Shown: piece by piece, positions 9,355 through 29,023 of the stretch | How positions within the stretch are numbered: position 1 is the stretch's first letter | Layout: the number at the start of each line of letters is the position of its first letter | DNA from: SAR202 cluster bacterium bin87 | GTDB taxonomy: Bacteria; Chloroflexota; Dehalococcoidia; Lucifugimonadales; UBA3495 | Direction: 5' to 3' | Length of the DNA: 46,196 bases | Assembly (NCBI GenBank): GCA_002238825.1 | Contig: MPNC01000020.1 | Location: 1-46,196, forward strand | Translations under genes and position numbers: made by a program | Notes under the pieces: generated by a model | Seen by the model: only the letters and a program-made list of their open reading frames with translations | The model's database searches: none | Told to the model about the DNA's origin: nothing

Positions 9355-9723
9355 TTACGGCGGCGCGGGAAGTTGCGTTTCGACCAGCGCGATGTAGTCG
9401 TGGGCATCCAGTATGCCGGCCTGGACGGCGCCGGCGCTGCGGGTGTTTTCGTAGAAATTGACGTGGAGTTGCTCGACGGCGTTAAAGAGCGCCAGGAAAT
9501 CTTGGTTGCCGGTGCCTTGGGCCAGGTTGCGCGCGATTCTCTTCAGGCTTGCGTGGCTGCGGTGGTAGGCTGGCGGTGTCAGACCCTCCGCGTAAGCCTT
9601 CGTAATTTGGGCGACGGCTCCCCAGGCTTTTTCGGAGGCTTGTCTCAGGTCTTGGAGCTGGAATTCGGCGTTGGCTTGTTGTATCAGATGGGCGGCAGCC
9701 GCTCGGTAGGTGACGGTGGTCAA
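9355..9723 (-). CDS. HEPN-like (PaREP1-type) helical protein
   Basis: A 122-residue all-helical protein with the pattern AxxxLxQANAEFQLQDLRQASEKAWGAVAQ, typical of PaREP1/SAV_6107-type HEPN domains. Such proteins are commonly halves of toxin-antitoxin or RNA-cleaving systems. I do not see a clear Rx4-6H ribonuclease motif, so catalysis is doubtful. It starts at TTG (9723), supported by GGAGA 7 bp upstream. The upstream gene ends 27 bp earlier on the same strand, so the two are probably cotranscribed. Confidence 0.6.
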   Translation of the reverse strand: MTTVTYRAAAAHLIQQANAEFQLQDLRQASEKAWGAVAQITKAYAEGLTPPAYHRSHASLKRIARNLAQGTGNQDFLALFNAVEQLHVNFYENTRSAGAVQAGILDAHDYIALVETQLPAPP

Positions 9724-10611: not shown

Positions 10612-10883
10612 GAACTGCCCCTCACAGCCGGTAGTCCACCTGGCCCACTTTACCATCGCCGATTACAGAGGCGATTTAAGGCGTAGATTTACGAAACGCC
10701 CGGACACAGCAGAAAGCCAGGCCCGGGCGTCCCTGTGAACCTCCTGGCTCTGCACGGTGATCAGCGGGAGGCCGTCGCCGTCTACGCCGTAAACTACGGT
10801 GACGGGACGGCGCATAGCGACTGCATGCGCGTTGTGGTCTGACCCGACGCCGGTTCCACGCGTACCAGCTGTCGACACACGTA

Positions 10884-10918
10884 ACGTTCGGCCGACGGGG
10901 TGAGCGCCGGCCGAACGT
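10884..10918 (-). terminator. Hairpin after the degenerate NERD gene
   Basis: ACGTTCGGCCG and CGGCCGAACGT form a perfect 11-bp stem, 9 bp past the stop codon at 10927 on the minus strand. The following T content is weak. Confidence 0.55.
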
Positions 10919-10926
10919 GCCGGGCG

Positions 10927-11646
10927 CTACTGAACGCGAACGTTCAGCGACGGACCGTCGCCATCGCCGGGTGCAGTGATGGTGAAGTGGAGGTGGATAT
11001 CGATGTGGACATCGTCTCCGTCCCGCACCGTCACCGCTCCGCCGCTCACCGTCAGGGTCGCCGCCTTCGGCGCCTGGGCCGGTCTGGCGGCCGCGGGCCG
11101 CCGGCTCAGCGTCCCCACCTCCCGGGAGATGAACCGCTTGCCCAGCTGCTTCTGCACCTGATCCCCGTCGGGCAGGTCGGCCAGCCGGGACACCAGGTCG
11201 TCCAGGCCCCACAGCAGCTGTACCCTGCTGCCCCGCATCTCCTCCAGGATGTCCGGGTCCGGGGTCATGTCGGTGAACACCATCACCGGGATCACGTAGC
11301 AGCCGAAGTCCAGGTCCTGCGACAGCCGGTCCTTGATGGACATGGCCGCCTCCCAGGCTTCTTCCCGGACGTCGCCCATCGGCGTGACGGCGCCGTCCTC
11401 AGCATGGCGGCGCCACTCGCCGTCCCGCACGGACCACTGGCCGTGCAGGAAGGTGATGGCGTAGCGGCCGTTGCCCTCCAGCAGGACCAGGCAGTCGGAG
11501 GCGGGGTCGCCGAGGACGGGGTCGCCGGGGGCCACGATGGGCCACCACAGCGCCTGGCCGGACCGGTCGCTCTGCTCAAACTGCTGGCAGATCTCGATCT
11601 CCCTCAGGGTCATGGGCCGGTTGTCGTCGGTTTTCACGATTTTCAT
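10927..11646 (-). CDS. NERD-like protein lacking the catalytic lysine, beta-rich C-terminus
   Basis: A 239-residue protein; AAGGAAA before ATG at 11646 decides the start. It is homologous to the NERD protein at 14128-14844: compare YVIPVMVFTDMTPDPDI with YVIPVLIFPDMEPDPTI, and the following RVQLLWGLDDLVSRLADL with VYVIWGVGNLLADLAEI. In the active-site strand the partner has ALQVKGG; here it is AITFLHG, so the lysine is gone, while D51 remains. It is probably a catalytically dead paralogue with a binding or regulatory role. The C-terminal 45 residues (TLTVSGGAVTV, DDVHIDIHLHFTI) form an added beta-strand tail. It is the last gene of the NERD-helicase-NERD set, although separated from the helicase by a terminator-like hairpin. 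Confidence 0.6.
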   Translation of the reverse strand: MKIVKTDDNRPMTLREIEICQQFEQSDRSGQALWWPIVAPGDPVLGDPASDCLVLLEGNGRYAITFLHGQWSVRDGEWRRHAEDGAVTPMGDVREEAWEAAMSIKDRLSQDLDFGCYVIPVMVFTDMTPDPDILEEMRGSRVQLLWGLDDLVSRLADLPDGDQVQKQLGKRFISREVGTLSRRPAAARPAQAPKAATLTVSGGAVTVRDGDDVHIDIHLHFTITAPGDGDGPSLNVRVQ

Positions 11647-11708
11647 ATTTGGTTTCCTTTTGTTTCGGTTGTGATTGGAAGGTTGCGCCCGGTCCGCAGC
11701 AACGAAAA

Positions 11709-11741
11709 CGGGCCGACCCGGTAAGGTCCCGGATCGACCCG
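11709..11741 (-). terminator. Intrinsic terminator or attenuator between helicase and NERD-like gene
   Basis: CGGGTCGATCCGG and CCGGGTCGGCCCG (read on the minus strand) form a 13-bp stem with two G-U pairs, followed by TTTT. It lies 63 bp before the NERD-like start, so it could terminate helicase transcripts or act inside the NERD-like leader. Confidence 0.6.
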
Positions 11742-11775
11742 CAACGTCTGCGGCCAGGCTGGTATGGTGAATTGG

Positions 11776-11837
11776 GGGCGGATATGTCTGCCCCCAGCGG
11801 GTTACGCTCGCCCGGCGACCCGAGGGCGGCCCTCGGG
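11776..11837 (-). ncRNA. Tandem hairpins in the helicase to NERD-like intergenic leader
   Basis: Two perfect hairpins lie just upstream of the terminator: CCCGAGGG-ccg-CCCTCGGG (11819-11837) and GGGGGC...GCCCCC (about 11774-11796). With the terminator at 11709-11741 they make three stems in series on the minus strand. It may be a structured leader or a small RNA; no known family recognised. Confidence 0.3.
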
Positions 11838-12126
11838 CCATGGCATTGCCAGCGGTCTCCTTACTCATGATGATCTTCACCCCCTGATGATGTGGTCTGG
11901 ATGGATCTGCGCGACCCTTTCCCCGACGGTTGGCGGTGCGGTCGCAGGCGCTCGGTTTTCACGTCCCCCAGAGGACGACGGCCCGTAGCCGCGGCATCCT
12001 GGAAAGACGCCGTGCCCCTACGCAGACGACGTTGACCGGCTCGACTGCCGGAACGACGGCGCGGATATGGTTGCGCTGCGCTGGCGCTGCACCAAGGCGC
12101 CGGATTCGGAACCGCGCGCGGCGTCC

Positions 12127-13863
12127 TCAGGACGGCGCTTTACCCAAATGCACGTCCACGCCTGTCAGGCGCAGCGTCAACCGGCCCGTCCTCGATAGGG
12201 TCTCCCGTACAGGGGCCCTCTCCCTGGGTTCGAACCGCTGGCGGGCCAGCGCCTCAATCTCCCCGGGACACAGCCCTCTCCAGCGGCGCGCCCCATCCCA
12301 GATGCCGTCAAAACGCTGGTGCACCGGCCCGCCGGCCGTCAGCACCAGCAGCCGCTCGGCCCTGGAGAAAGCAACGTAGTGCTGGCGCATGTGGTCGAAG
12401 GCCGCGATGCGCCGGGCGGGCTCCGCGTCCGCCCGCAGAAAGTACGGCGCCAGCGACCGGCCCACCGGGTCCACGTTGGGCTGGTGGAAATCCAGCGACC
12501 CCACGATCACGACTGGCCACTGCCTCCCCTTGGACTGGTGAATGGTCGTGATGGTCAACTCCTCCGAGGTATGCCGACGGCCCCGCCGCCCGCGGCCGGA
12601 GCCGGCCGGCACGCAGCGGGCGGGAATGCCCGCATCATCCAGGGCGTCCAGATAAGGTTCCGCCACCTCGTGCTGCACGCTGTGCAACAGCAACGCCACC
12701 CGGTCATAACCCCCGATCACCCCGCGGCCTTTCAGGAACCGCAGCAGCGCGCCCAATTGCTTACCCTCGTCGTCGGGGTCCCGGCCGTCGATGGCAATCA
12801 CCGCCGGATGATCGTCGTACCCGCTCGGGTCGTGGGGAACTATCGTCTTGGCGTGGCGGAAGGGCGCGCCGGCGGGATCGGGGTTGGACCAGTCCGCCGA
12901 TCCCATCCACCCGTCATACGCACTCACGATGTCGGGATGGCTGCGATAGTTGACGGTGAGCTCCACCACCCGGCAGTCGGGGAAGCGCCGGTCAAACCCG
13001 AGGATGTTGCGCACCGTGGCGCCGCGGAACCGGTACAGGCTCTGGTCCTCGTCGCCCACCACGCACAGGTTGCCATGCGCCTCGGATACCCGCGTCAGGA
13101 TGCGCTCCTGCACGTGGCTGGTGTCCTGGTACTCATCACACATCAGGTACCGTACGGCGCCGGCGATCTCAGCGGCGACCTCGTCGTCATCCAGCAGCAG
13201 GTCGGCCCACGCCTGCAGGTGGGCGAAGTCGGCGGCGTTCTCGTCCAGCAGCCGCCGCGCGTAGCGCCGGTAGCAGCGCCCCACCGCGGCGATGAAGGCA
13301 CTGCGGGAACGGGTCAGGTCCCGGGGATTGATCGCCTCGTCGCAGATCCTCTCGAAGTACTTCAGCGCGTTCTTCACCACCGCCGGCGGCCGTCGCCAGC
13401 CCCGGCCCTCCAGCTCCACCAGGTCGGGGCCGAATACGTCGTCAAACCGTTCCTGCAGCAGGTTCGCCTGCTGATCGCCGTCCAGCAGGCGGAAACCCCG
13501 CCGCAGACCCACCCGCTCGGGGTGTTCGGCCAGGAGCCGTGCGCACAGGCTGTGGATGGTGCAGACCCGCGTGCGGCCGGCACTGACGCCGTAATCCGCC
13601 GCGCTGGTCACGGCGTCAAAGCGCTGGCGCAGCTCACCGGCCGCGTCGGCATTGTAAGTGCACAGCAGCAGCTCGTCAGGTTCGGCTCTGCCCAGCAACA
13701 GGATGTTGGCGGCGCGCAGCGCCAGCGTCAGGGTCTTGCCGGCGCCGGGACCGGCCACGCCCAGCGTGGGACCATCGAGGCTCCCGATCAGCTCCAGCTG
13801 GCCGGCGTCCAGTCGCGGGTAGAGGGACATAATGACGGGCGCCACGCCCGCGGGGGTCTTCAT
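12127..13863 (-). CDS. UvrD/Rep-type SF1A helicase
   Basis: A 578-residue helicase with the full motif set: Walker A GPGAGKT (38-44), CTYNADAAGELRQRF, IHSLCARLL, Walker B DEYQDTS (243-249), VVGDEDQSLYRFRGA (268-282), TVNYRSHPDIV, TTIHQSKGRQWPVVIV, and YVAFSRAERLLVL near the C-terminus. SF1A helicases translocate 3'-5' on single-stranded DNA. It is shorter than UvrD (about 720) and near the size of GajB-like defence helicases, but no OLD-nuclease (GajA) partner is present. The last 20 residues (RLTLRLTGVDVHLG...) resemble the end of the upstream NERD protein. It lies between two NERD-family genes on the same strand. GGAG 10 bp upstream supports the ATG at 13863. Confidence 0.9.
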   Translation of the reverse strand: MKTPAGVAPVIMSLYPRLDAGQLELIGSLDGPTLGVAGPGAGKTLTLALRAANILLLGRAEPDELLLCTYNADAAGELRQRFDAVTSAADYGVSAGRTRVCTIHSLCARLLAEHPERVGLRRGFRLLDGDQQANLLQERFDDVFGPDLVELEGRGWRRPPAVVKNALKYFERICDEAINPRDLTRSRSAFIAAVGRCYRRYARRLLDENAADFAHLQAWADLLLDDDEVAAEIAGAVRYLMCDEYQDTSHVQERILTRVSEAHGNLCVVGDEDQSLYRFRGATVRNILGFDRRFPDCRVVELTVNYRSHPDIVSAYDGWMGSADWSNPDPAGAPFRHAKTIVPHDPSGYDDHPAVIAIDGRDPDDEGKQLGALLRFLKGRGVIGGYDRVALLLHSVQHEVAEPYLDALDDAGIPARCVPAGSGRGRRGRRHTSEELTITTIHQSKGRQWPVVIVGSLDFHQPNVDPVGRSLAPYFLRADAEPARRIAAFDHMRQHYVAFSRAERLLVLTAGGPVHQRFDGIWDGARRWRGLCPGEIEALARQRFEPRERAPVRETLSRTGRLTLRLTGVDVHLGKAPS

Positions 13864-14000
13864 AATTGCTTCACTCCAGAATTGGGCTTGGGTTTAGGAT
13901 CGGGTGATGGCAGCGACATGCAACGGCGGCGACATCAGTGGCGGCGGCGAGCGCGCTGCCGGTCGGGACGGACCGGACGGGTCCGTCGTACGCATGAAAA

Positions 14001-14030
14001 AGCGCCGGTGACCATCGGCCGACCGGTGCT
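14001..14030 (-). terminator. Intrinsic terminator after NERD gene
   Basis: On the minus strand AGCACCGGT and ACCGGCGCT pair over 9 bp (one G-U) and are followed directly by TTTTT. It lies about 100 bp past the NERD stop codon and 140 bp before the helicase start. Confidence 0.7.
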
Positions 14031-14127
14031 GTCGTTGCTGCACGGATGTGGCCACAGCGCCGGACTGCTACGGCAAGATGGGCCTATGCGTTGGACCAGG
14101 GCCTGGACTTCCCGGCGATGCGGGCGG

Positions 14128-14844
14128 TTATCCCGCCGGAGGCACGCCGCGGGCGCGGGTCGTCGTGACATCGACGCCGACCAGCGTCAGACGAAGCGTC
14201 CCGACGTATTGCCGTCGTTCCGGGACGGAAACCGGCTGATCCGCCGCATCGGCAACGCAGCCCGGCTCAAACTTCTCCAGGCGGATCAGCCCGTCGGTCA
14301 CCGCATGCACCTCGCGGGCGATGCGGTCCATCCCCAGAGCCTCCGACACCCGGCGGCTCCGGACGATCTCCGCCAGGTCAGCCAACAGGTTCCCGACCCC
14401 CCAGATCACGTACACTCCCGTGCGCCTGGCCAGGCTTTCGATGGTCGGATCAGGCTCCATGTCCGGAAATATCAACACCGGAATCACGTACGGGCTGTAG
14501 CGAGTTTCAGCCATCTCTTTGACGTCGTCGTGCAGGTCCAGCGCGGCCAGCTTGGTCTCATCCAGCGGGCAGGACTTGACCGGCTGGACGCCGTACCGGG
14601 TCTTCAGATACCAGTCACCGTGGATGAGCAGGTACCTGCCGCCCTTCACCTGCAGGGCGAAGCGACCCAGCCCTTCGGTCCACACGGCGAAGTCAAGCTC
14701 GATATGCTCATACCCCCTGCGCCACTCGTAATAAACGAAGCCCCAGCGACGGCTGTCAGCCAGGGCTTGGTACACTCGGCGTTCCGCCTGCCGCTTCGGC
14801 TTCTTGCGGCGACCCGACGGAAACTCTCTTGGGTACATCCTCAT
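14128..14844 (-). CDS. NERD-domain nuclease
   Basis: A 238-residue protein. The N-terminal NERD (nuclease-related) domain shows E21 in AERRVYQAL, D51 in ELDFAVW, and QVK (65-67) in ALQVKGG: a PD-(D/E)XK-like site with Q in place of the usual E. The second half (YVIPVLIFPDMEPDP, VYVIWGVGNLL) is shared with the NERD-like protein at 10927-11646. The C-terminus carries TLRLTLVGVDVTTT, resembling the helicase tail. NERD proteins are often tied to helicases in DNA processing and anti-phage systems. It is divergent from the Fic gene with 121 bp between starts. GGAG about 11 bp upstream supports ATG at 14844. Confidence 0.75.
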   Translation of the reverse strand: MRMYPREFPSGRRKKPKRQAERRVYQALADSRRWGFVYYEWRRGYEHIELDFAVWTEGLGRFALQVKGGRYLLIHGDWYLKTRYGVQPVKSCPLDETKLAALDLHDDVKEMAETRYSPYVIPVLIFPDMEPDPTIESLARRTGVYVIWGVGNLLADLAEIVRSRRVSEALGMDRIAREVHAVTDGLIRLEKFEPGCVADAADQPVSVPERRQYVGTLRLTLVGVDVTTTRARGVPPAG

Positions 14845-14965
14845 GGTTGGTGCTGCTCCTTTTACTAATCGTGCCTCCCCAGCCCAGTGCGGGATCGCTT
14901 GGAAACTTTAATAACGGCGACTGGTGTTCAATGATGCGTGCTATCCTTGAATAAAAGGGCGGGCC

Positions 14966-16237
14966 ATGGCCAAGTTGGAAGAACACATCTGGGAACCCGA
15001 TTTCGCCGGCCCAACCCGGCGCGACCGCAGACCATGCCGGTATTCCCTCTACCTGCCCGACCAACTGACCGGTCGCCGCTTCGCGCTCGACGGCGACGTG
15101 GCCGCGGACGTCGCCGACGCGGAAGCCGACCTGGTCAAGTTGAACGCGGTGGTTGACGCCCTGGCCGACACCGAAGCGCTGGCCCGGCTGCTGCTGCGCG
15201 CCGAGTCGGTGGCATCCTCGCGCATCGAGGGCCTGGTGGTGGGTGGAAGACGGCTGCTCCGCGCCGACGCGGCCCGCCGGATGGGGGAGGAGGTGTGGGA
15301 CGTCACCGCAGCCGAGGTGCTGGCCAACATCGACGCCATGGTCTGGGGAGTGGCGGCAGTTGAACCGGGCGATCAGGTAACCCTGGAAATCCTTCTGGAG
15401 GTGCATCGCCGTCTGCTGGCCGGAACCCGCCTGCGGGAACACGGCGGACGCATCCGCACGGTGCAGAACTGGATCGGCGGCAGCGGCTACAACCCCTGTT
15501 CCGCCGTCTTCGTGCCCCCGCCTCCGGAGGAAGTCCCTGCCCTGCTGGATGACCTGCTCGCCTTCTGCAACGACGACGGGCTTCCTGCTCTGGTCCAGGC
15601 GGCCATCGCCCACGCCCAGTTCGAGACCATCCATCCCTTCGTGGACGGCAACGGGCGCGCCGGACGGGCGCTCCTTCACCTGATCCTGCGCCGCCGCGGG
15701 ATCGCAACGCACTTCCTGCCGCCGGTCTCCCTGGTGCTGGCCACGTGGGCCGAGGACTACGTGGCGGGACTCACCGCCACCCGCTACGTGGGCGATACCA
15801 ACTCGGACGCTGCCCACGCCGGCGTCAACCGCTGGGTGGCGCTCTTTGCCGGAGCGTGTCAGCGGGCGGTTGCGGACGCCCGGGCATTCGAGGAACGGGT
15901 GCGCCGGTTGCAGGCGGCCTGGAGAGAACGGGTCGGCAATCCACGCCGCGACTCGGCCATGCACCGGCTCATCGGAGCCCTGCCGGCGGCTCCGGTCCTC
16001 ACCGCGACCACCGCGGCTGAGCTGACCGACCGCTCATTCCAGGCCGCCAACCAGGCCATCGACCGCCTGGTGGCCGCCGCCGTGCTGGTCCAGGTCAACG
16101 TGGGCCGGCGCAACCGCGCCTTTGAGGCCCCCGAACTCATCGACGCCTTCACGGCGCTGGAACGACAGCTGGCCAGTCCGGAGGGAGACACACTGGTCTC
16201 AGAGCCAATACGGGACGTGCCGCGCAGACGGCGCTGA
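14966..16237 (+). CDS. Fic-domain AMP-transferase, class II
   Basis: The 423-residue protein has the canonical Fic motif HPFVDGNGRAGR (223-234) and an N-terminal inhibitory helix SSRIEG (84-89), which makes it a class II Fic whose glutamate blocks ATP until relieved. An N-terminal Fic_N-like region precedes it, and a winged-helix segment follows (TAAELTDRSFQAANQAIDRL). Fic enzymes transfer AMP to Ser/Thr/Tyr of target proteins. Many orphan class II Fic proteins regulate cell processes or act like toxins; the target here is unknown. It is transcribed away from the NERD gene and may share a regulatory region with it. Confidence 0.9.
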   Translation: MAKLEEHIWEPDFAGPTRRDRRPCRYSLYLPDQLTGRRFALDGDVAADVADAEADLVKLNAVVDALADTEALARLLLRAESVASSRIEGLVVGGRRLLRADAARRMGEEVWDVTAAEVLANIDAMVWGVAAVEPGDQVTLEILLEVHRRLLAGTRLREHGGRIRTVQNWIGGSGYNPCSAVFVPPPPEEVPALLDDLLAFCNDDGLPALVQAAIAHAQFETIHPFVDGNGRAGRALLHLILRRRGIATHFLPPVSLVLATWAEDYVAGLTATRYVGDTNSDAAHAGVNRWVALFAGACQRAVADARAFEERVRRLQAAWRERVGNPRRDSAMHRLIGALPAAPVLTATTAAELTDRSFQAANQAIDRLVAAAVLVQVNVGRRNRAFEAPELIDAFTALERQLASPEGDTLVSEPIRDVPRRRR

Positions 16238-16685: not shown

Positions 16686-18041
16686 CTACTGCTCCGCCTC
16701 GTATTCGCGCAGGCAGTCCACGATAACCTGATTCATCGTGGGAAACCGGTTGCTCGCGAAGTCAGAAACCCACGCTTCGATTTTATCGCGCACCGAGCCG
16801 TCATCCCATCGGACGCCATAATCCGCCTCATCCAAGATGTAATCCGGTTCGTCGTGCAGAATTACCCAGCCATCGATCAGGGACGTGGTTTTCGCCTTGA
16901 ACAGCGTTGGGTGTTGTCTTACCGCATCGTACAGTTTGGCCCTCACTGGGTTGTTGTCCACATTGCCGGTCGAAAGTGCGAGATCAAGCCAGGGAAGTTC
17001 ATCGTAAAATCTGAACTGGAACAGCAACAGTGCGCCGGAGCGAGGAGCCCAACCAATCCCGGTCTGCATCGATCCAAACTGGTCCCAATCAGCCGACCGG
17101 AATCGCACAAATTCCCTGTCCTCTACATCAAGCCTCCAAGCCTCTTGTCCGGCGATCGCTTCCCTGAGCATCTGCTTGGCCTCAGCCACCCAATCGACCT
17201 TATTTTCGATGATGAGGTCCATCACTTCCCTGTGTTCCAGATAGATTTGACGCGCGCGTTGCGGGATGCTGGTATCAGGCACGATGTTCCTCCTCAGCGT
17301 TGTTGCGTACTGCCGCAAAAACGGGCGCACGTTTTCATCCACCGAATTGCATTCGTCATCGACGATCTGTTGCGTGATGTCGAGGACCGCCGCGTAAGCC
17401 GCCGGAACCCAGAATCTGCGTTCTTCCTCAAGGTAAGCGTCTGTACCCCCTGGTGTCAGGAATACGTGGTGCCTGGTGAAATCGGGATAGCGCTCGGCCA
17501 ACGCTCTCCGGTAGCGGGTTAGCTGTTCGCTGTGTTCGCTGGAAAACACCTTATTCTCGATAGCGCACAGAGCCGACCCGGCTTCGTTCAGCACCAGGAT
17601 ATCCAGATAACCCCACTGTCCCTCGACCAGGTTGACCCACTCCCGATGTACCTCCGCGGCCGACCAATCGGCCTCAAGTATTTGCGACGGCGCATCAGTC
17701 TGCCGCAAGAAGCTCCTGAGGAAATAATCAGCGGTCCCATGACTGCTCTGGGGATCCAATAACCAGGCCAGCAGGTTGGACTGAAACTCCTCGTCGCCCC
17801 AAAGCGGCTTGCCCGAACCCATTCTCAATTGGCCGACAAAGTCCAGAGCGTCAAATTCGTTACGCTGCTCGGCAACGAGCTTCTCCAGCTCGTCGAGGGG
17901 TTCGGACAGCGCGAATTGCTCTAATGCCAGTACCCGGCCACATCGCTCAGTAGCCAGCGACCCTTCCAGCTCCTCCAAATCGGGCACCACACTTTCAAGC
18001 CATTGGAGATGGTCCGTCGTTCCTGGATCGTCCGTTTGCAT
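16686..18041 (-). CDS. PD-(D/E)XK nuclease superfamily protein (PDDEXK_4 type)
   Basis: The 451-residue protein contains the PDDEXK_4 signature. EFQSNLLAWLLDPQSSHG at about 85-102 is followed by GYLDILVL (D147) and ALCAIENKVFS (E162-x-K164). An EHSEQLTRYR segment and HVFLTPGG follow, all typical of this family of standalone restriction-like nucleases found in defence islands. The remaining 250 residues have no recognised domain. The start is ATG at 18041; an in-frame TTG at 18047 is possible but has no better ribosome-binding site. It stands alone within the element, with gene-poor flanks. Confidence 0.85.
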   Translation of the reverse strand: MQTDDPGTTDHLQWLESVVPDLEELEGSLATERCGRVLALEQFALSEPLDELEKLVAEQRNEFDALDFVGQLRMGSGKPLWGDEEFQSNLLAWLLDPQSSHGTADYFLRSFLRQTDAPSQILEADWSAAEVHREWVNLVEGQWGYLDILVLNEAGSALCAIENKVFSSEHSEQLTRYRRALAERYPDFTRHHVFLTPGGTDAYLEEERRFWVPAAYAAVLDITQQIVDDECNSVDENVRPFLRQYATTLRRNIVPDTSIPQRARQIYLEHREVMDLIIENKVDWVAEAKQMLREAIAGQEAWRLDVEDREFVRFRSADWDQFGSMQTGIGWAPRSGALLLFQFRFYDELPWLDLALSTGNVDNNPVRAKLYDAVRQHPTLFKAKTTSLIDGWVILHDEPDYILDEADYGVRWDDGSVRDKIEAWVSDFASNRFPTMNQVIVDCLREYEAEQ

Positions 18042-18372
18042 AGTCAATACCAGCCAGAAGAGATCAGGGCACTTCGCCGGCGATTATAGCCGGCCAACCG
18101 GGTGTTGTCCCATTATTGATGAAGTCAGAGTTGTACTTGCTGATCCAGGAACAGCAGACAACTCGGCCCCAAGCGGGCTCGGCTACGGCTGAGGTCGGAG
18201 ACGCGCAGCGACAGCGCGATAGCCGCGGCTCCGTGCCTATCGGCGTAGTCTGAGGTCTCTGGCTTCCGCGGAGCTCTACCCGCGGAGGTTTTGCGGCCGC
18301 GATGGTATCAGCCATGCCTCGGTCCTAAGGTACCGGCGGATGGCGACCGGAGGCAGGGACAGGAACGGCCGG
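18042..18372. other. Intergenic stretch between the nuclease and phosphoesterase genes
   Basis: No gene seen. A CCGCGG...CCGCGG hairpin around 18259-18284 could end transcripts of the phosphoesterase gene on the minus strand, although no T tract follows. Confidence 0.35.
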
Positions 18373-19230
18373 TCATCCTACAACCTCGATCAGTATCCGG
18401 CAGTGGTCGCTGGCTCCCCACTCGTCCACTCCGTTCAGGGCCCGCGCATGCACCCCGCGGTGGAACCCCCGCGAGGCGAACACGTAGTCCAACTGGTTTG
18501 CGGCGGTTGCCGGTGATTGTCGGGTGGTGTAGTAGGTTGGGACATTTTTCGTGTCTGGACGCAGCCCTACCGGCGTGGCGCTGGCCAGCCGCCCGTCGGG
18601 ATGCTGTGGCCCCACGAACTCCAGGCCCAGCGCACCCATGCGTTCAAACACGCCTCGGTCCCGCTCGTACCAGACCAGGGGATTGCCCCGGATAGCGCCG
18701 TAGATGTTGTTGAGATCGCCAGCCGCCAGGATCCGGTGACCACTGAGGTCAGTGTCCCAGATGAAAGCGGCCAGGTCGGACATGATCAGGTGAGCAGTCC
18801 TATCCGAGTGGATGTTACGGGTCCTGCCGGTGAGAGGATGAGGCCTGAACCAGCGAGCGTACATCGACACGACGATGAAGGGCTCTCCGCCAGTAAGCGG
18901 GATGATCTTCGCGGCGGCGATGATGCCGACGTTGCTGACGGCGATCTCGTCGTCACCTTCGCTGGGGGTGCTGGGCAGGACCTGACTGAACCACTCCACC
19001 TCCACCCGGTCCGACAGCTTCACCACCATGGGCCAGCGGTCAAAGTGCTCCCGGGGCCAGGGTTCCCAGGGGTCCTGGGGACCGACCGAGACGTTGCCCC
19101 CAGCGTTGCGCAGTCGATCCAGGGCACCCGGACCCACCTCCTGGAGAAGAGCCACGTCGGCGTCCATGGCCAGCAGCTCCTCCACCGCCTGGAGCCGCAT
19201 GGCAATGTTCCAGCTCACCACCGTGACCAT
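18373..19230 (-). CDS. Endonuclease/exonuclease/phosphatase (EEP) family protein
   Basis: The 285-residue EEP fold is complete: SWNI with N8, LLQEV with E31, an internal MYARWF strand, AGDLNNI, QLDYVFASRG and a terminal SDHCRI. These are the metal- and phosphate-binding residues of DNase I/ExoIII-like enzymes. No signal peptide is visible, so it is probably cytoplasmic. The substrate (DNA, RNA or a phosphorylated small molecule) cannot be told from sequence. It follows the partition region in the element and could be either cargo or a maintenance nuclease. Confidence 0.85.
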   Translation of the reverse strand: MVTVVSWNIAMRLQAVEELLAMDADVALLQEVGPGALDRLRNAGGNVSVGPQDPWEPWPREHFDRWPMVVKLSDRVEVEWFSQVLPSTPSEGDDEIAVSNVGIIAAAKIIPLTGGEPFIVVSMYARWFRPHPLTGRTRNIHSDRTAHLIMSDLAAFIWDTDLSGHRILAAGDLNNIYGAIRGNPLVWYERDRGVFERMGALGLEFVGPQHPDGRLASATPVGLRPDTKNVPTYYTTRQSPATAANQLDYVFASRGFHRGVHARALNGVDEWGASDHCRILIEVVG

Positions 19231-19559
19231 GACGTCTGCCTCCGCGGAACCTGCGGCCGGACCGCATTGCTCAGACCGTCCATAGACGTTTGATAAATCG
19301 CCCTTATCAGACCTTTATGAGAGGCCGATTCCCGGCGCTGTTCGTCTGCCACCCAGCAAGTCCGGCAGTGATCGATGTCGGATCCACTTTATCCAAGAAC
19401 CGGGTGGAGTTAAAGTTCGACACTCCTTGTAGATCATAGATTTCGCGGGCGAATGGCTATCCCACCACCGGATTAGATAGCAAATAAACGCGCGCCGCCA
19501 CGTCACCTCGTGCGGGTGATAGCGTTGTTGTTTTGCAAAGTTGCGGATTGGTAGACCGG

Positions 19560-19635
19560 CGATTCTACAACTCTACATGCTTACGACCCTACAATCTTAC
19601 AGGTCTGCAGATTCATAGAGTTTTAGATATGCAGA
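19560..19635. repeat. Centromere-like short-repeat array downstream of the parA-RHH operon
   Basis: A low-GC tract made of 8-9 bp variants of YTACANNY: CTACAACT, CTACATGCT, TACGACC, CTACAATCT, TACAGGTCT, GCAGATTC. Several words (TCTACAACTCTA, CTTACAGGTCT) recur in the array on the other side of the operon at 21010-21080. RHH partition proteins bind such short direct repeats. Confidence 0.6.
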
Positions 19636-19693
19636 GGCGAGGTTACGGGGATTCGCGGCGCCTCGCAAAATCCGCCCGGTGGCGTGTGACCAA

Positions 19694-19722
19694 AAACGGC
19701 TGGCCCCAAAAGCCAGCCGTTT
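19694..19722 (-). terminator. Intrinsic terminator of the parA-RHH operon
   Basis: AAACGGCTGGC and GCCAGCCGTTT form a perfect 11-bp stem with a 7-nt loop. On the minus strand TTTTT follows, 24 bp after the RHH gene's stop codon. Confidence 0.85.
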
Positions 19723-19745
19723 CGAACATGACAATGTTTCGGAGG

Positions 19746-20114
19746 TCAGGTGCCGGGACGACGGTAGCCTCGCTTGTTCATCCAGTCTTCCAATGATTCT
19801 GCGACAATCGTCGAGAGGCTCTTTCCAGTGGCGGCGATGGCATATTGCAGGTCTTGGCGCAGGGCGGTGGGAACATAGGCGGTGAGTCTTTTCTTGCCAG
19901 CCACGTCATTGGCCTGGGAGATGGCCGCCTTAGGAGAGCGATGCTTGTGCACGTCGTAGCCCTGTCTCTTGAGAAACTGTCTGATGGCATCATGGTCGAT
20001 CTGGGCTAACGTATCGTGTTCAAGTTTATCCTCGGACTCGTTAGCCAAGTCCGGGTAGTCCGAGGTTGCTAGAGCCGTCAGATCCATCAGATCTGGTTTT
20101 TTCTGATCAGACAT
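19746..20114 (-). CDS. ParG-like ribbon-helix-helix centromere-binding protein
   Basis: A 122-residue protein with a flexible acidic/basic N-terminus and a C-terminal RHH-like domain (KRLTAYVPTALRQDLQYAIAATGKSLSTIVAESLEDWM). Its start overlaps the ParA stop by 8 bp, with GAGGAG upstream, so the two are translationally coupled. This is the arrangement of type Ib plasmid partition systems, in which the RHH protein binds a repeat centromere and autoregulates. Related repeat arrays flank the operon on both sides, supporting that role. Confidence 0.75.
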   Translation of the reverse strand: MSDQKKPDLMDLTALATSDYPDLANESEDKLEHDTLAQIDHDAIRQFLKRQGYDVHKHRSPKAAISQANDVAGKKRLTAYVPTALRQDLQYAIAATGKSLSTIVAESLEDWMNKRGYRRPGT

Positions 20115-20793
20115 GGAGCATCTCCTCGAGCTCGACGGGTTCTTGGCGGTGGGAGTCATCAATCTGCTTGGCGATCCACTTCCACAGGTTAGTCATCTCT
20201 TGGGCGGCCGCACTCTTGGGTTGGAACTCCGCTACGCTGAGGCCGACGAGGGAGGCGTCCCAATAAGTCACACGTCTTGTGATGATGGCTGGTGCGATGT
20301 CGATGCCCATGCCCGACAGGCTGCTGAGCATCCGGTCCCGTCGCTGCCTGATCGCAGGGATGTTATTCGGAATGAGGGCCATTCTCCAGCCTTTCTCTAC
20401 CCCGCGATGAACTAGGCTGGCCGTGATCATGACCTCGTACGGCGATGGCATGATGGGGATCAGTATCAGGTCCATGGCGTTGAGAGCCTGGTCCATGCTG
20501 AAGGAGTCCGCACCCGGCATATCGCAGATGATCAGATCGTACTTGGCCTTCCCCTGGACTCCACTCAGTGCAGCGATGCCTTCGTCGGACATTGACGCCT
20601 TGACAGTGGTGACTCGGGTCCTATCGGGGCTGTGATTCTGCCGCAGTTGGTGTTGTCTGAGGGCGGTAGCCTGAGGGTCGAAGTCGCACAACAAGGTGCG
20701 GACGCCGGCGGCGTTCGCGCGTTCAGCTGTATTGAATGCCAAGGTAGTCTTGCCAGTGCCTCCTTTCCAGGAGGCGAATGCGATGGTGGTCAT
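20107..20793 (-). CDS. parA: ParA-type partition ATPase
   Basis: The 228-residue ATPase has a deviant Walker A motif, KGGTGKTT (10-17), then LLCDFDPQAT and LIICDMPGADS (Walker B), and the MPSPYEVMITASLV segment common in short ParA/ParF proteins. There is no N-terminal DNA-binding extension, as in type Ib systems. GGAG 6 bp upstream decides the ATG at 20793. ParA forms ATP-dependent patterns on the nucleoid to separate plasmid copies with its RHH partner. Its presence implies that this inserted element is, or was, a low-copy replicon. Confidence 0.9.
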   Translation of the reverse strand: MTTIAFASWKGGTGKTTLAFNTAERANAAGVRTLLCDFDPQATALRQHQLRQNHSPDRTRVTTVKASMSDEGIAALSGVQGKAKYDLIICDMPGADSFSMDQALNAMDLILIPIMPSPYEVMITASLVHRGVEKGWRMALIPNNIPAIRQRRDRMLSSLSGMGIDIAPAIITRRVTYWDASLVGLSVAEFQPKSAAAQEMTNLWKWIAKQIDDSHRQEPVELEEMLHV

Positions 20794-21009
20794 GGCTGCT
20801 CCGGTTGCCGTGGATTGGCGATTACGCGGCGGCCGCTGGTCCAGGTAGCGCGTCGCGACCCCATAAATCCACTGGGTTGCAGGCTTTCCAATGCGGAAAT
20901 TGCCTTCTCCGCAGGTTAACAACCGAGACGCGGCGCCGTCCCGTAAACCACCAGCCATGGTTTGGCGATTTTCAGGGTTGCGGGGTTGCAAACCCTCAGG
21001 TTTGTCAGC

Positions 21010-21085
21010 CTCCACGTCTGTAGAATCATCAGCTTACAGGTCTACAACTCTAGCAGTCTCCAGACCTGCAAATCTTCAGTCTGAA
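21010..21085. repeat. Centromere-like short-repeat array upstream of parA
   Basis: Repeats such as TCTGTAG, CTTACAGGTCTACAACTCTA, CAGTCTCCAG and CCTGCAAATC echo the words of the 19560-19635 array. The tract lies between parA and the divergent RHH gene, where type Ib centromeres and promoters are usually found. Confidence 0.55.
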
Positions 21086-21105
21086 AAGCACAAGCAAGCG
21101 ATGTG

Positions 21106-21134
21106 TTGTTTCCAACGGAGTACCGTTGTAACAT
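21106..21134 (+). promoter_or_regulatory. Promoter with built-in operator for the small RHH gene
   Basis: TTGTTT (21106-21111) and TAACAT (21129-21134) are spaced by 17 bp. The spacer consists of CAACGG-agta-CCGTTG (21113-21128), a perfect inverted repeat in the position of a classical repressor site. The gene starts 37 bp downstream, so autorepression by the encoded RHH protein is likely. Confidence 0.55.
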
Positions 21135-21171
21135 CGTGCTAACATCCAAGCACAGTTGAAGGAAGTCAGCG

Positions 21172-21318
21172 ATGGTCGCACGCATGACGGTAAAAATCGA
21201 GCCAGATTTAAAGAAGGAAATCCAAGCAGAGGCGAAGCGTCGAGGCATCGATATGAGTGCGTGGGTCAGGCTGACGCTTACCGATGCTTTGGAAGCCGCC
21301 AGGGAGCGCAGACAGTGA
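21172..21318 (+). CDS. Small ribbon-helix-helix (CopG/Arc-like) regulator
   Basis: 48 codons: MTVKIEPDLKKEIQAEAKRR, GIDMSAWVRLTLTDALE. This is the RHH fold: a short beta strand (TVKIE), then two helices with a turn at GIDMS. AAGGAAG upstream supports ATG at 21172; an in-frame ATG four codons later is also possible. It is too short for many gene callers. It sits between the centromere-like array and the primase-like gene, where plasmid copy-number repressors such as CopG lie. Likely autoregulator through the CAACGG/CCGTTG operator. Confidence 0.7.
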   Translation: MVARMTVKIEPDLKKEIQAEAKRRGIDMSAWVRLTLTDALEAARERRQ

Positions 21319-21547
21319 CGTCCTCTGCGTCATCGAGCTGGGGGATCGTGGTGTGGAACCTGGCCATTGCATTGGTTGGTCCGCCTACCAGAAAACCCCC
21401 ACAGACTGGAACTTTTGCCGTCGAGGCTCCCTACTGGTCAACGTGAACGGAAAACAGGCTGGTCATTCCAGCCCTATCTGCAGGCTTTACTCTGCCCCGG
21501 GAGGCAACCGATCCGGCTGCCCGTCGACGACGGTGGAGGTTAACTAA
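21284..21547 (+). CDS. Small uncharacterised ORF coupled to the primase-like gene
   Basis: A frame of about 87 codons ends at TAATG shared with the primase-like start, a coupling that suggests it may be translated. It contains CVIELGDRG, GHCIGWSAYQKTPTDWNFC and SLLVNVNGKQAG but no recognised domain, and its start inside the RHH gene has no ribosome-binding site. A competing frame begins at GTG 21315, overlapping the RHH stop as GTGA, and encodes 43 residues with one possible membrane segment. Only one is likely real. Confidence 0.3.
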   Translation: MLWKPPGSADSDVLCVIELGDRGVEPGHCIGWSAYQKTPTDWNFCRRGSLLVNVNGKQAGHSSPICRLYSAPGGNRSGCPSTTVEVN

Positions 21548-22059
21548 TGACAACCTACGGAGGGTCTAGGCTGGCGGACTGGAAGACGATCACCCAAGCA
21601 GTGGCCCGCGAGTTGAAGGGAGAACCCAACAATCACCTGTCAAACAGGATCGAACTGCGGTGGGGCCGACGTGGCAGTTTCCAGTTGACCACCGACGGCC
21701 CCACAGAAGGTCGTTGGAAGGACTGGGAATCAGGCCAAGGCGGCCGCGGCGCTGTAAGTCTAGCCGGGTACCTCCTCGGCACTGACCGTGATGGCGCTTT
21801 AGACTGGCTACGGCGGAGAGGTTATCTGTCAGACCACCCACCTGCCGCGGCACCGCGTAAACTCACAGCTACGCCGGCCGTTGAGCAAGCATCTACCGAC
21901 CGTTCAGCCATCGCACGATCAATCTGGGCCTCCAGCGCGGCGATACCGCGACATGAGGTCCATCCGGCCAGACGCTGGTTCTCCAACCGTCGACTGTGGC
22001 GTCCGGAGTTGCCTACTCCACCATTTTTGCGCTGGCGGGCGGCGGACAACCGCCAACAC
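21547..22059 (+). pseudogene. Plasmid-type primase-like protein, truncated at the element edge
   Basis: GGAGG 9 bp before ATG decides the start. The first 170 residues fit plasmid/phage primase-helicase N-terminal regions: RWGRRGSFQL...GRWKDWESGQGG...LAGYLL, then ARSIWASSAAIPRHEVHPARRW and RRLWRPELPTPPFLRW. Family members continue with a Toprim region; here the sequence breaks after DNRQH at the ACGGT junction and runs on, in frame, into the host Ig-like protein. The result is an accidental chimeric ORF from 21547 to 22398. The missing C-terminal half is not in this window, so the element is not replication-competent as seen. Confidence 0.65.
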
Positions 22060-22064
22060 ACGGT
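22060..22064. repeat. Right copy of the 5-bp direct repeat
   Basis: ACGGT, identical to 5340-5344 and in the same codon phase of the split host gene. Confidence 0.65.
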
Positions 22065-22398
22065 CACCGGCGTGGCAGTGGGCACGGCGACCATCACGGT
22101 CACGGCGGCAGACGGCAACGGCAACCGGGTCAGCGACGCCTTCGAGGTTGTGGTGGTCAAGAAGTACGCGGCGCTCATCGCGCAGATGTACGAATGGCGC
22201 AACGATCCCACGCGGGCCTCGAAGGCCCACACGGACCTCTGGGACCGGGCGCTGCTGGCCTTCGGGGAGACGGTGGCCGATGCGGCGATGACGGCGATGA
22301 CAGCGGCGGAGGCGCAGACCTATGCCGACCGGGGCTGGGAGCGCTGGGCGCCGGTGGCCAAGGCGCTGGCGGAGATCGAGGCAGGCGGGTCCGGGTAG
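22060..22398 (+). pseudogene. 3' half of the secreted Ig-like protein split by the insertion
   Basis: Begins TVTGVAVGTATITVTAADGN, the second half of an Ig-like repeat. It continues into a conserved C-terminal module with WDRALLAFGE and MTAAEAQTYADRGWERW, which I associate with the ends of such surface proteins in Chloroflexota. It lacks its own start and is presently translated, if at all, as the tail of the truncated primase-like gene. It completes the fragment at 4734-5344. A strong hairpin follows 28 bp after its stop codon. Confidence 0.8.
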
Positions 22399-22426
22399 TG
22401 GCCGCCCGAACCGCCGGCTATCCCAC

Positions 22427-22456
22427 GCGGGCGTCCGGCTTCGGTCGGGCGCCCGC
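22427..22456 (+). terminator. UUCG-tetraloop terminator hairpin
   Basis: GCGGGCGTCCGGC-TTCG-GTCGGGCGCCCGC: 13 pairs (two wobble) closed by the very stable cUUCGg loop. No T run follows. It terminates the split surface-protein gene. Confidence 0.65.
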
Positions 22457-22616
22457 GCTTGACCGCGCCGGAAGGACGCCAACGGCGCAGTGAAGTGGAG
22501 GCCGTCACCATTACGGCGGAGACTCCGCCTTATGCAGCGACGTTGCGTTCTGCTGGCGCGGCGTTCTGAGGCAGTGGCGGCCGGGAAGGGGCATGATCGC
22601 GGGGTCACGGTAAACC

Positions 22617-22889
22617 TCACCGTGGAGGATGTTCCTCCCGCCGGCGATGGACACGAACCGGTGTTTTGGGTTGATGCCAGGGGCCGGGGCTGCGGCGCCC
22701 ACATGCCACCGGCGGTTGGAACGCAGAGACGGGAGCGGTCACCGGCCCGTTGGCCATGGGCAACCGCGCCGCCGGGCCTCGGGTGGCGGGCCGGCCGTTC
22801 TTCATGGTGACGGCCTCGATGTCCTTCGAGGCGGTCTTGGCCTTGCACTTGACGCAGTAAATCTCCACGGCATCGGAGGGTGTGGTCAT
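22617..22889 (-). CDS. DUF5679-type small zinc-ribbon protein, C-terminus replaced
   Basis: Starts MTTPSDAVEIYCVKCKAKT and continues with AVTMKNGRPATRG, the signature of DUF5679 proteins. These normally go on to a second CPxCG knuckle within 45-60 residues. Here the sequence after RPATRG turns into GPAARLPMANG and unrelated residues up to residue 90, so the second metal-binding half is missing. This suggests a frameshift or recombination that leaves a half zinc ribbon. GGAG 9 bp upstream supports ATG at 22889. Function of the family unknown. Confidence 0.5.
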   Translation of the reverse strand: MTTPSDAVEIYCVKCKAKTASKDIEAVTMKNGRPATRGPAARLPMANGPVTAPVSAFQPPVACGRRSPGPWHQPKTPVRVHRRREEHPPR

Positions 22890-23019
22890 GGATGAAAACT
22901 CCAGCATGGGGTGACATAATTCTAACCCATGCGTCTGCGGCGTCAGCGACCACGCCGTCGGGCGGCGTCCTCCGCGGCCCGGCTGCGGAGAGGTGAGCGA
23001 GCATAGCGGAGTGTCAGGC

Positions 23020-23562
23020 ATGACGAAGATGAGCGTGGAGATCGAGGGCAGCGTAGACGAGGTGATCGGTGTCCTGCGGCGGCTCGGGATCACGGGGAGC
23101 CCCGCAACCGTGGGTGATGCCGACCGGTCGACGGAGCAACCTGGTGATGGCGTCGGGGAGACCGCGCCAGCCGCCGCGGGTCAGGGCAAGGCGGTAGCCG
23201 ACGAGGCTCCTCCCGGGGAATGGACGGAGACGCTGGCCCGCGATTTCCTGTCCATGCTGCAGCCGGCGGCCCGGAGGCTGGCGTTGCACGTCTGGCGGGC
23301 CGGCGCGGCGGGCATCCACCGGAGTGCCCTGTGCCAGCGTACGGAGCTGACGCCCATGGAGCTGCGTTCGCTGGTGATGCGGATGGGCCACGCGCTGGCA
23401 GGGCTCCAGCGGGAGCGGGGGATGACGCTGTCCCGGCCGTTGGCGGCCAACAGCCCGCTGCAGAGTTATTTCGTCGATCCCGACTTCGCGGCGGCGGCGG
23501 ATACCGAGATGTTCGGTGATGGGACGGCGGAGGTGCCGGTCAATGGCGCGGGGCGCCCCTGA
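23020..23562 (+). CDS. Hypothetical protein with coiled/helical core
   Basis: A 180-residue protein. The start at 23020 (MTKMSVEIEG) has GGAG 8 bp upstream; a GTG at 22993 is in frame. It shows a short regulatory-like beta segment (SVEIEGSVDEVIGVLRRLGI), a low-complexity linker, and then a helical domain (WTETLARDFLSMLQPAARRLALHVWRAGAAGIHRSALC ... MELRSLVMRMGHAL). That domain resembles a winged-helix arrangement, and the protein ends with VDPDFAAAADTEMF. I recognise no named family. It overlaps the next, lipoprotein-like frame by 20 bp. Confidence 0.6.
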   Translation: MTKMSVEIEGSVDEVIGVLRRLGITGSPATVGDADRSTEQPGDGVGETAPAAAGQGKAVADEAPPGEWTETLARDFLSMLQPAARRLALHVWRAGAAGIHRSALCQRTELTPMELRSLVMRMGHALAGLQRERGMTLSRPLAANSPLQSYFVDPDFAAAADTEMFGDGTAEVPVNGAGRP

Positions 23563-23865
23563 CGGGTTCCGGTTGCTGGCGCCCGGGATAGCCGATGTGG
23601 GACGATGGTGGAAGGCGCTGACGATGACGGCCTGCGTATGGCTGACGCTGGCCTGCGGGATGGACGGCGACGACCGGACGGTGCCCGGTACGCCGAGTGC
23701 ATGGTGGACACCAACACCGCTTTGCACCGGCTGAGGGTGTCCGGAGTGGTCGGGACCGTGGCGCTGAGCGCCGATGCGGTGGAGGGACGTATGCGTGACC
23801 AACTGGAGCGAGGCGAGGTTACGATGGCGGAGATCAGGACTGGCTACGGCCGCTACTGTGAGTAA
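23543..23865 (+). pseudogene. Small lipoprotein-like gene, probably frameshifted
   Basis: The first frame (ATG 23543) encodes a hydrophobic stretch ending in the lipobox-like LTLACG (WWKALTMTACVWLTLACG), then a Thr/Pro/Asp-rich linker, and stops at 23734. From about 23700 another frame gives a compact conserved-looking domain, ALHRLRVSGVVGTVALSADA, ending GEVTMAEIRTGYGRYCE at 23865. Together they look like one lipoprotein with a +1/-1 shift near 23695. Alternatively the second part starts at its own ATG (23701) as a 54-residue protein. Confidence 0.4.
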
Positions 23866-23886
23866 GAACCGGCGAGGGTTGGGGGC

Positions 23887-24132
23887 ATGGCACGGGTGGA
23901 AGGCACTGGGGGTTGGGCCGCATCCGGTATCAAAAGCATTGCCGAGGGGCCGGATGGCAGGTGCGGCATGGTGACGACGGAATGCGCCGCGCTGGGCGGG
24001 GAATGGATGGCAGGAGCGATGATCTGGGGGTGGATGATGTGGCGCATCCGCAATCAGGAGGGTTCAAAACCAGCCGACGAAATCCGGCGTGAGCCTGGCG
24101 GACGGAATCTCCGCACGGGACGGTTTACGTAA
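23887..24132 (+). CDS. Doubtful small ORF
   Basis: 81 codons with GGGGG upstream of ATG. One Trp/Met-rich hydrophobic stretch (GAMIWGWMMWRI) sits in the middle. No domain recognised, and codon use does not separate it clearly from background. Confidence 0.2.
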   Translation: MARVEGTGGWAASGIKSIAEGPDGRCGMVTTECAALGGEWMAGAMIWGWMMWRIRNQEGSKPADEIRREPGGRNLRTGRFT

Positions 24133-24248
24133 TGACCGTTTGCGCGAATCATGGGGCCAGTTAATTTGGCGAGACAATCGTCTGCAGATGCCGGATAATT
24201 AACGGATGATGCGGCCGATAACCGATACTTGAACAGGAGAATAGGAAT

Positions 24249-24476
24249 ATGGATGCCATGGATTTTATTTACGTTTGCACTAACCCGGATTGTTTCGCTA
24301 ACGGGATCGCCGAGGCTCCACCCGAGCCAATGGGCTCTGAGATCTCGGTGTGTTGCGGTCGGTGTGGCCGAAAGCGCACTTACCCGACGATTTGGTTGAA
24401 CAATGAAACCCCATCGTTGTTGGAAGAGTATCTACGCGGCTACTTTGAAGTGCGCCAGCGGTACGTCGCTGACTGA
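24249..24476 (+). CDS. Small zinc-ribbon protein
   Basis: A 75-residue protein with CTNPDC near the N-terminus and CCGRCGRKR in the middle, a probable C-x4-C / C-x2-C metal site. AGGAG 9 bp upstream decides the start. The C-terminal half (LLEEYLRGYFEVRQRY) is helical. Probably a nucleic-acid- or protein-binding accessory factor; no family recognised. Confidence 0.6.
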   Translation: MDAMDFIYVCTNPDCFANGIAEAPPEPMGSEISVCCGRCGRKRTYPTIWLNNETPSLLEEYLRGYFEVRQRYVAD

Positions 24477-24660
24477 GGTTTCAGGCCGGCCAAGTGAGCG
24501 GCCGCGGCCCTGGTCAGGAACAGGGGTACGCTCCGGCTCTCGATGATCGCCTCGGCGATGAGGGAGGAGGTAGGCCTCTGATCCTGTTTGAGCAACATGA
24601 TCGTCAGGCGGACCAATCATTATTGGCGAGAAGCTGTCGGCACCCTACAGGAGGATAGAT

Positions 24661-24888
24661 ATGTCGATTCAGGGAGCAGGTAAGACAATGAAACGGTTGG
24701 CGAGGGAGGCACATGGCGTGGTGCTTGATTCCGCGGGTGAAATGGGTCGTAGACAAAGGTGGAACTTGTTCGTCAAGAATCTGCCACATGACCATACGCT
24801 ACTGGAACTAGCTGGTGAAATCGTGGACGAGATGGATGACCAGCAGCGCCGACAGTTGCTTCTGGTCACTGAGAGGGCGATTAGCTAG
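24661..24888 (+). CDS. Small helical hypothetical protein
   Basis: 75 residues preceded by a strong AGGAGG. The protein is helical and charged (LFVKNLPHDHTLLELAGEIVDEMDDQQRRQLLLVTERAIS). It may be cotranscribed with the zinc-ribbon gene 185 bp upstream. No recognisable domain; the tail resembles a short oligomerisation helix. Confidence 0.55.
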   Translation: MSIQGAGKTMKRLAREAHGVVLDSAGEMGRRQRWNLFVKNLPHDHTLLELAGEIVDEMDDQQRRQLLLVTERAIS

Positions 24889-25187
24889 GCCGGGATGTGC
24901 GAATGAAAATCGCGGCTATCTGGACGTTTGCTGGTGGCGTCGTGGCTGGCGACCCGACCACGCGCAACCCTCGTTAGACTTGGCGGTTTGACGTAACGGC
25001 TGTTGGCGAACCATGGCAGGTATCAGCAAGGCTACTTGAACCGCCACAAGCTGAGAGTTGTGGCCGGAAATTGGTTGCCCGACAAAACTGCGGTAAGCGG
25101 CAGTACTGCAACGGCTGTGGTGCGAGGAACACGGTCTGCGAAGTAGAAACGGAGGCGACAGATCAGCAATGCTCAAGGTTTAGCGGA
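24889..25187. other. Intergenic stretch, nothing recognised
   Basis: About 300 bp between the small helical gene and the PIN toxin, with convergent flanking genes. No hairpin with T tract and no coding frame worth reporting. Confidence 0.4.
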
Positions 25188-25688: not shown

Positions 25689-25694
25689 GGCGTG

Positions 25695-26747: not shown

Positions 26748-26760
26748 GAGGACACCTCCT

Positions 26761-26797
26761 GTTTACAGTCTATGGTATAATGTGGTTATCTGTAAAC
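26761..26797 (-). promoter_or_regulatory. Operator palindrome upstream of the HTH-ImmA/PIN operon
   Basis: GTTTACAG (26761-26768) and CTGTAAAC (26790-26797) are perfect inverted 8-mers flanking an AT-rich core. On the minus strand TTTACA and TAGACT lie 18 bp apart as a weak promoter. A dimeric XRE protein is the natural ligand. Confidence 0.55.
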
Positions 26798-27000: not shown

Positions 27001-27148
27001 GTTCCTCCTCTACAAGAGGCCGCACCGCCTGACGTGGTTGCTCATGAGTAAATGAAAAGCAATTTGCTGCTGATGTCCGGTAGCGCCAGCCAGGCTGCGG
27101 TGTGCAATTGTGAACGTCTCCAATGGCGCGGTTGGGTACGAGGGCAAT

Positions 27149-29018: not shown

Positions 29019-29023
29019 ACACC

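Follow-up and report, generated by a model that had tools for sequence, protein, structure and literature searches.

We describe a three-gene cassette in a 46,196-nucleotide stretch of a SAR202 cluster bacterium genome (contig MPNC01000020.1, hereafter the window), which we read, with a probability of about 0.6, as a mobile nuclease–helicase immune cassette in which a nuclease lost from the helicase has been replaced in trans by a separate protein. The genes encode, in their order of transcription on the minus strand as given by the open reading frames, a NERD-type nuclease (A), a UvrD/PcrA-type helicase (H) and a pseudo-nuclease related to A (B). Nuclease–helicase pairs are a common logic in bacterial immunity, and here their evolution appears readable step by step, from a fused helicase–nuclease, through loss of the nuclease in cis, to a nuclease in trans that stands alongside together with a dead paralogue. 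Such a system would extend the defence repertoire of these Chloroflexota, which we take to be sponge-associated, and it opens two questions to experiment: why immune systems separate helicase from nuclease, and what pseudo-nucleases do.

The genes and the elements around them are as follows.

14128–14844, minus strand: A, active-motif NERD-type PD-(D/E)XK nuclease, 238 aa
14784–14782, 14694–14692, 14652–14650 and 14646–14644, minus strand: predicted active-site codons of A for E21, D51, Q65 and K67, respectively
13967–13987, no strand: 8-bp perfect hairpin in the A–H gap
12127–13863, minus strand: H, UvrD/PcrA-type SF1 helicase, 578 aa
12130–12225, minus strand: C-terminal tail of H (RERAPVRETLSRTGRLTL...), stump of a lost PD-(D/E)XK junction by alignment with fused relatives
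11819–11837, no strand: 8-bp perfect hairpin in the H–B gap
11708–11742, minus strand: terminator-like hairpin just upstream of B, not above chance in a terminator scan
10927–11646, minus strand: B, pseudo-nuclease and NERD paralogue of A, 239 aa
10884–10918, no strand: inverted repeat just after B, with 14-nt arms that are 93% complementary
10697–14848, minus strand: mobile A-H-B cassette, the block homologous to a copy on contig C11 (blastn 87%, 4188 columns)

A preliminary description of this DNA had placed three genes on one strand at these positions and read them as a NERD-like nuclease, a UvrD helicase and a paralogue of the first that had lost its catalytic lysine and kept the fold; the open reading frames bear out the layout, and each of the three identifications was upheld by the comparisons below. 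The start of B is probably the ATG at 11646 rather than the GTG at 11880, the long frame that reaches the latter being presumably over-extended.

Nuclease, helicase and pseudo-nuclease

By remote homology, A is a NERD-type nuclease. H is the only cassette gene recognised by Pfam, NCBIfam and PADLOC, and neither A nor B gave a match in these or in PHROGs; a profile of the family's 11 A proteins matches the NERD domain of PF08378-positive proteins (hhalign E 3e-15). Outside the family, this profile finds mostly the N-terminal NERD domains of NERD–SF1 helicase fusions of ~550–650 aa, and Pfam calls that domain PF08378 in all three fusions scanned. A carries the NERD catalytic pattern E...D...(E/Q)xK in a PD-(D/E)XK fold, with E21, D51, Q65 and K67 invariant in the 11 A relatives; in the two most divergent members Q65 is E. 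The structural model of A has pLDDT over 90 across most of the core. In VIA-align it matches Cdn1/Can2/Card1 (Z up to 10.6), NucS (8.7) and AF1548 (8.0), although values of ~8–10 are not far above background and a family missing from the list of fold matches is not thereby shown to be absent; Foldseek alone returned no significant match for the A model. Residues 1–187 of the A and B models also match the linker region of the human Schlafens SLFN5/12/14 (Z about 8–9), which in the longer Schlafens stands before an SF1-type helicase domain, and the NERD–helicase fusions weakly match the Pfam entry SLFN-g3_helicase.

B is homologous to A (BLASTP 31% over 133 aa, E 2e-17; profile–profile E 6e-31 over 203 columns), and its model keeps the PD-(D/E)XK core, with Schlafen linker regions, Upx and Can2-type nucleases as the closest structures. 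It retains E16 and D51, has a beta-rich C-terminal extension, and departs from the NERD pattern at the Q and K positions, where T65 and L67 stand in for A's Q65 and K67; across the B clade, which has four members, position 65 is T or S and position 67 is L. The dead lineages differ in the residues lost: Q and K are gone from B, D and Q from the upstream pseudo-NERDs (one of the two also having R for K), and, in genome G001, K and the helix glutamate. These differences point to separate losses without proving them, and the NERD tree, in which one dead group is supported at 48/78, does not decide between a single and a multiple origin of the dead copies.

H matches PF00580 (E 2e-55) and carries all of the UvrD/PcrA SF1 motifs I–VI. 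Judged from its alignments and its position in the tree, it descends from a fused helicase–nuclease and has lost the C-terminal PD-(D/E)XK domain together with about half of 2B. Outside the family, the helicases closest to it are ~890–950 aa long and have a full 2B region, and a C-terminal PF12705 nuclease was detected in all four fused relatives scanned (E about 1e-19); in H the 2B subdomain falls short of the full length seen in UvrD/PcrA helicases, about half of the region being missing, and the PF12705 domain is absent, a short stump excepted. The spacing from the NYRS motif to motif V is short: 135 aa in the window H and 131–147 in the H clade (the C117 protein, mis-measured by the pattern, was judged from the alignment), against 270–296 in the fused relatives and about 270–280 in PcrA (1pjr, by alignment). 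The tail of H, RERAPVRETLSRTGRLTL, lines up with RERMPVKRTYSFTGDLKI of the 920-aa fused relatives, at the point where their nuclease domain begins, and with the preceding 26 residues included the match to this junction in the two closest fused relatives reaches z 14–16. In a tree with a PcrA/UvrD-like outgroup, the H genes are nested among UvrD-PDDEXK_1 fusions; the fused protein of the window's own genome (contig C19) falls near them on a long branch, so that the H genes need not form one clade. UvrD-PDDEXK_1 fusions of about 900–920 aa that appear related to the ancestor of H are found at L128:1501–4260, L131:1–2760 and L027:1–2706, the last being the contig C19 protein. No family-type A was found in the sampled genomes that have a still-fused relative (G372, G707), nor on contig C19.

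The preliminary description had also seen similar tails at the ends of the three proteins and suggested a shared docking strand. At the window locus the A and H tails do align (score 38 against 20 for shuffles, p 0.005, a comparison chosen after the fact), but the likeness does not recur consistently at other loci, the DNA match extends over only 15 bp, and there is no alignment between the A and B tails at this locus. The A tails do not match the junction of the fused relatives, bar one weak score (z 4.0). A docking strand common to H and to A or B was rejected for H: its tail is what is left of the lost nuclease domain. Tails are partly shared among the NERD proteins of other loci, so that A and B may have a function of their tails in common, with the helicase left out: the stretch DLTARQVVIQRADVVNVYTV is nearly the same, residue by residue, in the A of G019 and the B of G001 (z 14.8). 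The motif, DLTARQVxIQxADxVNVYTV, is C-terminal and near-identical in an active A (L040:6226–6957) and a dead B (L036:6688–7428) of different genomes. In the A model, the C-terminal hairpin at 215–230 has pLDDT under 50. As for the further claim that each gene is followed by its own hairpin, hairpins do occur in both gaps and after B, but terminator-like sites are no commoner than in shuffled sequence (1 against 1.7), and in the C11 copy neither the A–H nor the H–B gap has a perfect hairpin. No RNA element was matched in Rfam.

Mobility, distribution and genomic setting

A, H and B move together as a mobile cassette. The window copy (contig C6) and a second one, which the same genome has on contig C11, share one 4.2-kb block, from 4 bp upstream of the A start to 230 bp past the B stop, with dN/dS of 0.26–0.38 across the three genes; the open reading frames and the comparison with C11 showed no other recognisable gene within the cassette. 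The co-occurrence across genomes that the preliminary description had proposed to search for was found. All ten H-clade genes found in the family lie directly downstream of a same-strand A, two of them with internal stops (G013:C3 and G016:3470k), and a B-like pseudo-nuclease or remnant accompanies seven of the ten A–H loci, on either side of the pair, and is absent from the other three. The pseudo-NERD lies downstream of H on C6, on C11 and in G016, and upstream of A at G013:C3, where it is open, and at C117, C52 and G016:961k, where it is partial or a remnant. Other arrangements include a B that follows an H fragment (G006), a B that adjoins A without H (G001), A without an H-clade helicase (twice in G001, in G019 and at G007:C69) and broken cassette copies on contigs C34 and C55. 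In G019, a different UvrD-like gene (L040:3736–5628) lies ~600 bp downstream of A; its motif II reads DG for DE (VDGMQDL), and it is perhaps an inactive helicase partner.

The cassette is present in 8 of 50 family genomes, and its distribution is patchy, multicopy and rapidly decaying. Standalone A was seen only in the window's family; a partial sampling of its order, class and phylum yielded mostly NERD–helicase fusions, so that A may occur more widely. By their public titles the relatives belong to SAR202/Dehalococcoidia MAGs of Chloroflexota. A phage or plasmid origin of A was considered and rejected, since searches of plasmids, phages and viral contigs returned nothing that matched it.

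A defence island spans positions 16686–36054 of the window, which also contains transposase-like ORFs. The island includes the following systems.

16686–18047: PDC-S26 nuclease
27110–30562: type II CBASS (Cap17-like effector, SMODS cyclase, E1-E2)
30652–32372: AbiE (AbiEi/AbiEii)
32383–36054: type IIG restriction-methylation enzyme

With these four in the window, antiviral defence is the most likely role of the cassette, though such a setting is no proof. Phage integrase or replication-relaxation genes are found near other cassette copies. Several neighbours recur: A is divergently paired with a gene for a Fic protein both in the window (14128–16237) and at the broken C34 copy (L033:3879–5989); a PaREP1/PaREP8-family gene adjoins the cassette (9355–9723), and short genes like it lie close to the copies on C34 and in G016; and related endonuclease/exonuclease/phosphatase-family genes are found near the cassette at 18373–19230 and near the A–B pair of G001 at L036:9943–10788.

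Proposed mechanism and alternative readings

By analogy with known nuclease–helicase systems, H would sense or unwind DNA, A would cut it and B would modulate the cut; the antiviral role, a physical complex of the three proteins, the part of B, the trigger and the substrate are all points that we infer. The ancestor would have been a UvrD helicase that carried a PD-(D/E)XK nuclease at the C-terminal end of the same chain, and after the domain loss in H a separate NERD nuclease, A, would have taken the nuclease's place in trans. The most likely starting points for H are DNA ends or single-stranded gaps arising from phage replication or recombination; once loaded, it would move 3'-5' with ATP and position or activate A, which would cut the DNA. 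The likeliest part for B is to pair with A, or to bind H at the site that A uses; it would thereby restrict A to nicking or keep it switched off until H acts, a role that may be likened to that of inactive nuclease modules accompanying active ones elsewhere. The complete scheme, an undescribed three-part immune system in which a nuclease-shed helicase drives a recruited NERD nuclease and a dead twin within a heteromer sets the activity in one of these two ways, is a tentative proposal to which we give somewhat less than even odds.

In favour of the immune cassette we counted the A–H pairing at all ten H loci, the lack of a cis nuclease in H, the nesting of H among the fused proteins in the tree, the failure to find a family-type A where the relative is still fused, the recurring pseudo-NERDs, the single block shared by C6 and C11 and its dN/dS of 0.26–0.38, the defence island, and the nearest relatives of A outside the family, which are NERD domains fused to SF1 helicases; against it we counted the A loci without H, the decaying loci, the lack of B at three of ten loci, the upstream copies of B, mostly remnants, and the narrow distribution. 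Some of these points bear on B in particular. A reading in which A and H do the work, while B, decaying or dispensable, is a duplicate without any function, would fit the loci from which B is missing, the remnant state of most upstream pseudo-NERDs and the high dN/dS of B over longer distances (0.57–0.78), but we think it unlikely, as B is intact and 97% identical in the C6 and C11 copies (dN/dS 0.26, from few substitutions), is uninterrupted in G016 and G006, where identity is about 40% and many residues are invariant, keeps its modelled fold, and has pseudo-NERD counterparts on both sides of A–H and in G001.

B could also be an antitoxin-like inhibitor that, with H, keeps off an A that is toxic alone, so that the trio would in effect be a toxin–antitoxin system; B has the fold of A, adjoins it and lacks the catalytic pair, and the C-terminal motifs of the G019 A and the G001 B are near-identical. 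Intact A nevertheless occurs without intact B at C49, which has no B, and at C52 and G016:961k, which have remnants; A is thus tolerated without B at those loci, and we consider an antitoxin role improbable. Quite a small chance likewise attaches to the trio being part of a mobile element's machinery for DNA repair or recombination (AddAB/RecBCD-like, or for maintenance of the element) rather than an immune system. The derivation of H from an AddA-like UvrD-PD-(D/E)XK fusion and the copies near phage integrases and a replication-relaxation protein would be in keeping with repair, yet the cassette is patchy, multicopy and quick to decay, has the setting of a defence island in the window, and in H has lost the domain that a processive repair helicase–nuclease uses.

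Comparison with known immune systems

Taken as a mobile immune cassette with its nuclease in trans, A-H-B recalls several known systems. It resembles Gabija (GajAB) in combining a UvrD-like helicase with a separate nuclease, and in PADLOC H scores best against the GajB models (E 5e-42), although UvrD fusions score equally and PcrA/UvrD structures outscore GajB structures. It differs in the apparent descent of H from UvrD-PDDEXK_1 fusions, and Gabija was rejected, as the cassette contains no OLD/TOPRIM GajA-like protein and A and B lack PADLOC and Pfam matches. The initial remark that this is neither Gabija nor any nameable system has held, membership in the other systems having failed as well. 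Linear DNA that is free of RecBCD has been proposed as the substrate of Gabija (PMC12407980).

Hachiman (HamAB) is likewise a two-protein immune complex of an effector nuclease and a separate sensor helicase, in which the helicase senses the state of the DNA and activates a nuclease in trans, and its authors discuss the separation of nuclease and helicase (PMC12278908). However, HamB is a Ski2-like SF2 helicase and HamA a DUF1837 protein, whereas the cassette combines an SF1 UvrD helicase with NERD proteins; Pfam, PADLOC and NCBIfam gave no DUF1837 HamA or Ski2-like HamB match, and Hachiman was set aside. AbpAB resembles the cassette in that its helicase is accompanied by two nuclease modules, one active and the other catalytically inactive, the role of the latter being called enigmatic (PMC12278908), but AbpA holds both modules in one chain and is related to Cap4/HamA, whereas the two copies here are separate NERD paralogues.

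The PADLOC candidates RTasNERD-Hel (DRT) and C3a187 (NERD+UvrD) also join NERD to an SF1 helicase, and a fused relative of A matches them with E 1e-88 and 7e-36, respectively. That relative, though, is a single-chain NERD–helicase, A and B themselves are unmatched, and H comes from another helicase lineage. A DRT with RTasNERD-Hel or RTasHel was rejected, no reverse transcriptase being found near the cassette loci: the RVT_1 hits in G000 and G016 are on other contigs or far away, and G013 and G007 have none. The AddA/RecB-like UvrD-PD-(D/E)XK (PF12705) proteins, one of which lies on contig C19 of the same genome, represent the ancestral architecture of H, from which H differs in its missing nuclease domain and half-lost 2B.

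NERD nucleases serve immunity in TALON, Mokosh type I, Nhi-like systems and the PglW of type 2 BREX (PMC12458937, PMC10952713, PMC12839542), and TALON is largely confined to Chloroflexota. These systems share the nuclease type with the cassette and differ in its partners, which include a YprA-like helicase, TPR-CSD proteins and kinases, among others; TALON was rejected in that the cassette consists of A, H and B only, with a UvrD-type H and no YprA-like helicase, TPR-CSD or TBP. Mus81-Eme1 and BspD6I, each with an active nuclease subunit and a related or separate second subunit, give weak fold matches to A or B; they have no sequence relation to the cassette proteins and may serve as a mechanistic model only, for an A–B dimer. 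On present sequence comparisons, then, the A-H-B cassette, known here from one Chloroflexota family only, is neither Gabija, Hachiman nor DRT, and it is probably a new nuclease–helicase antiviral system of Chloroflexota.
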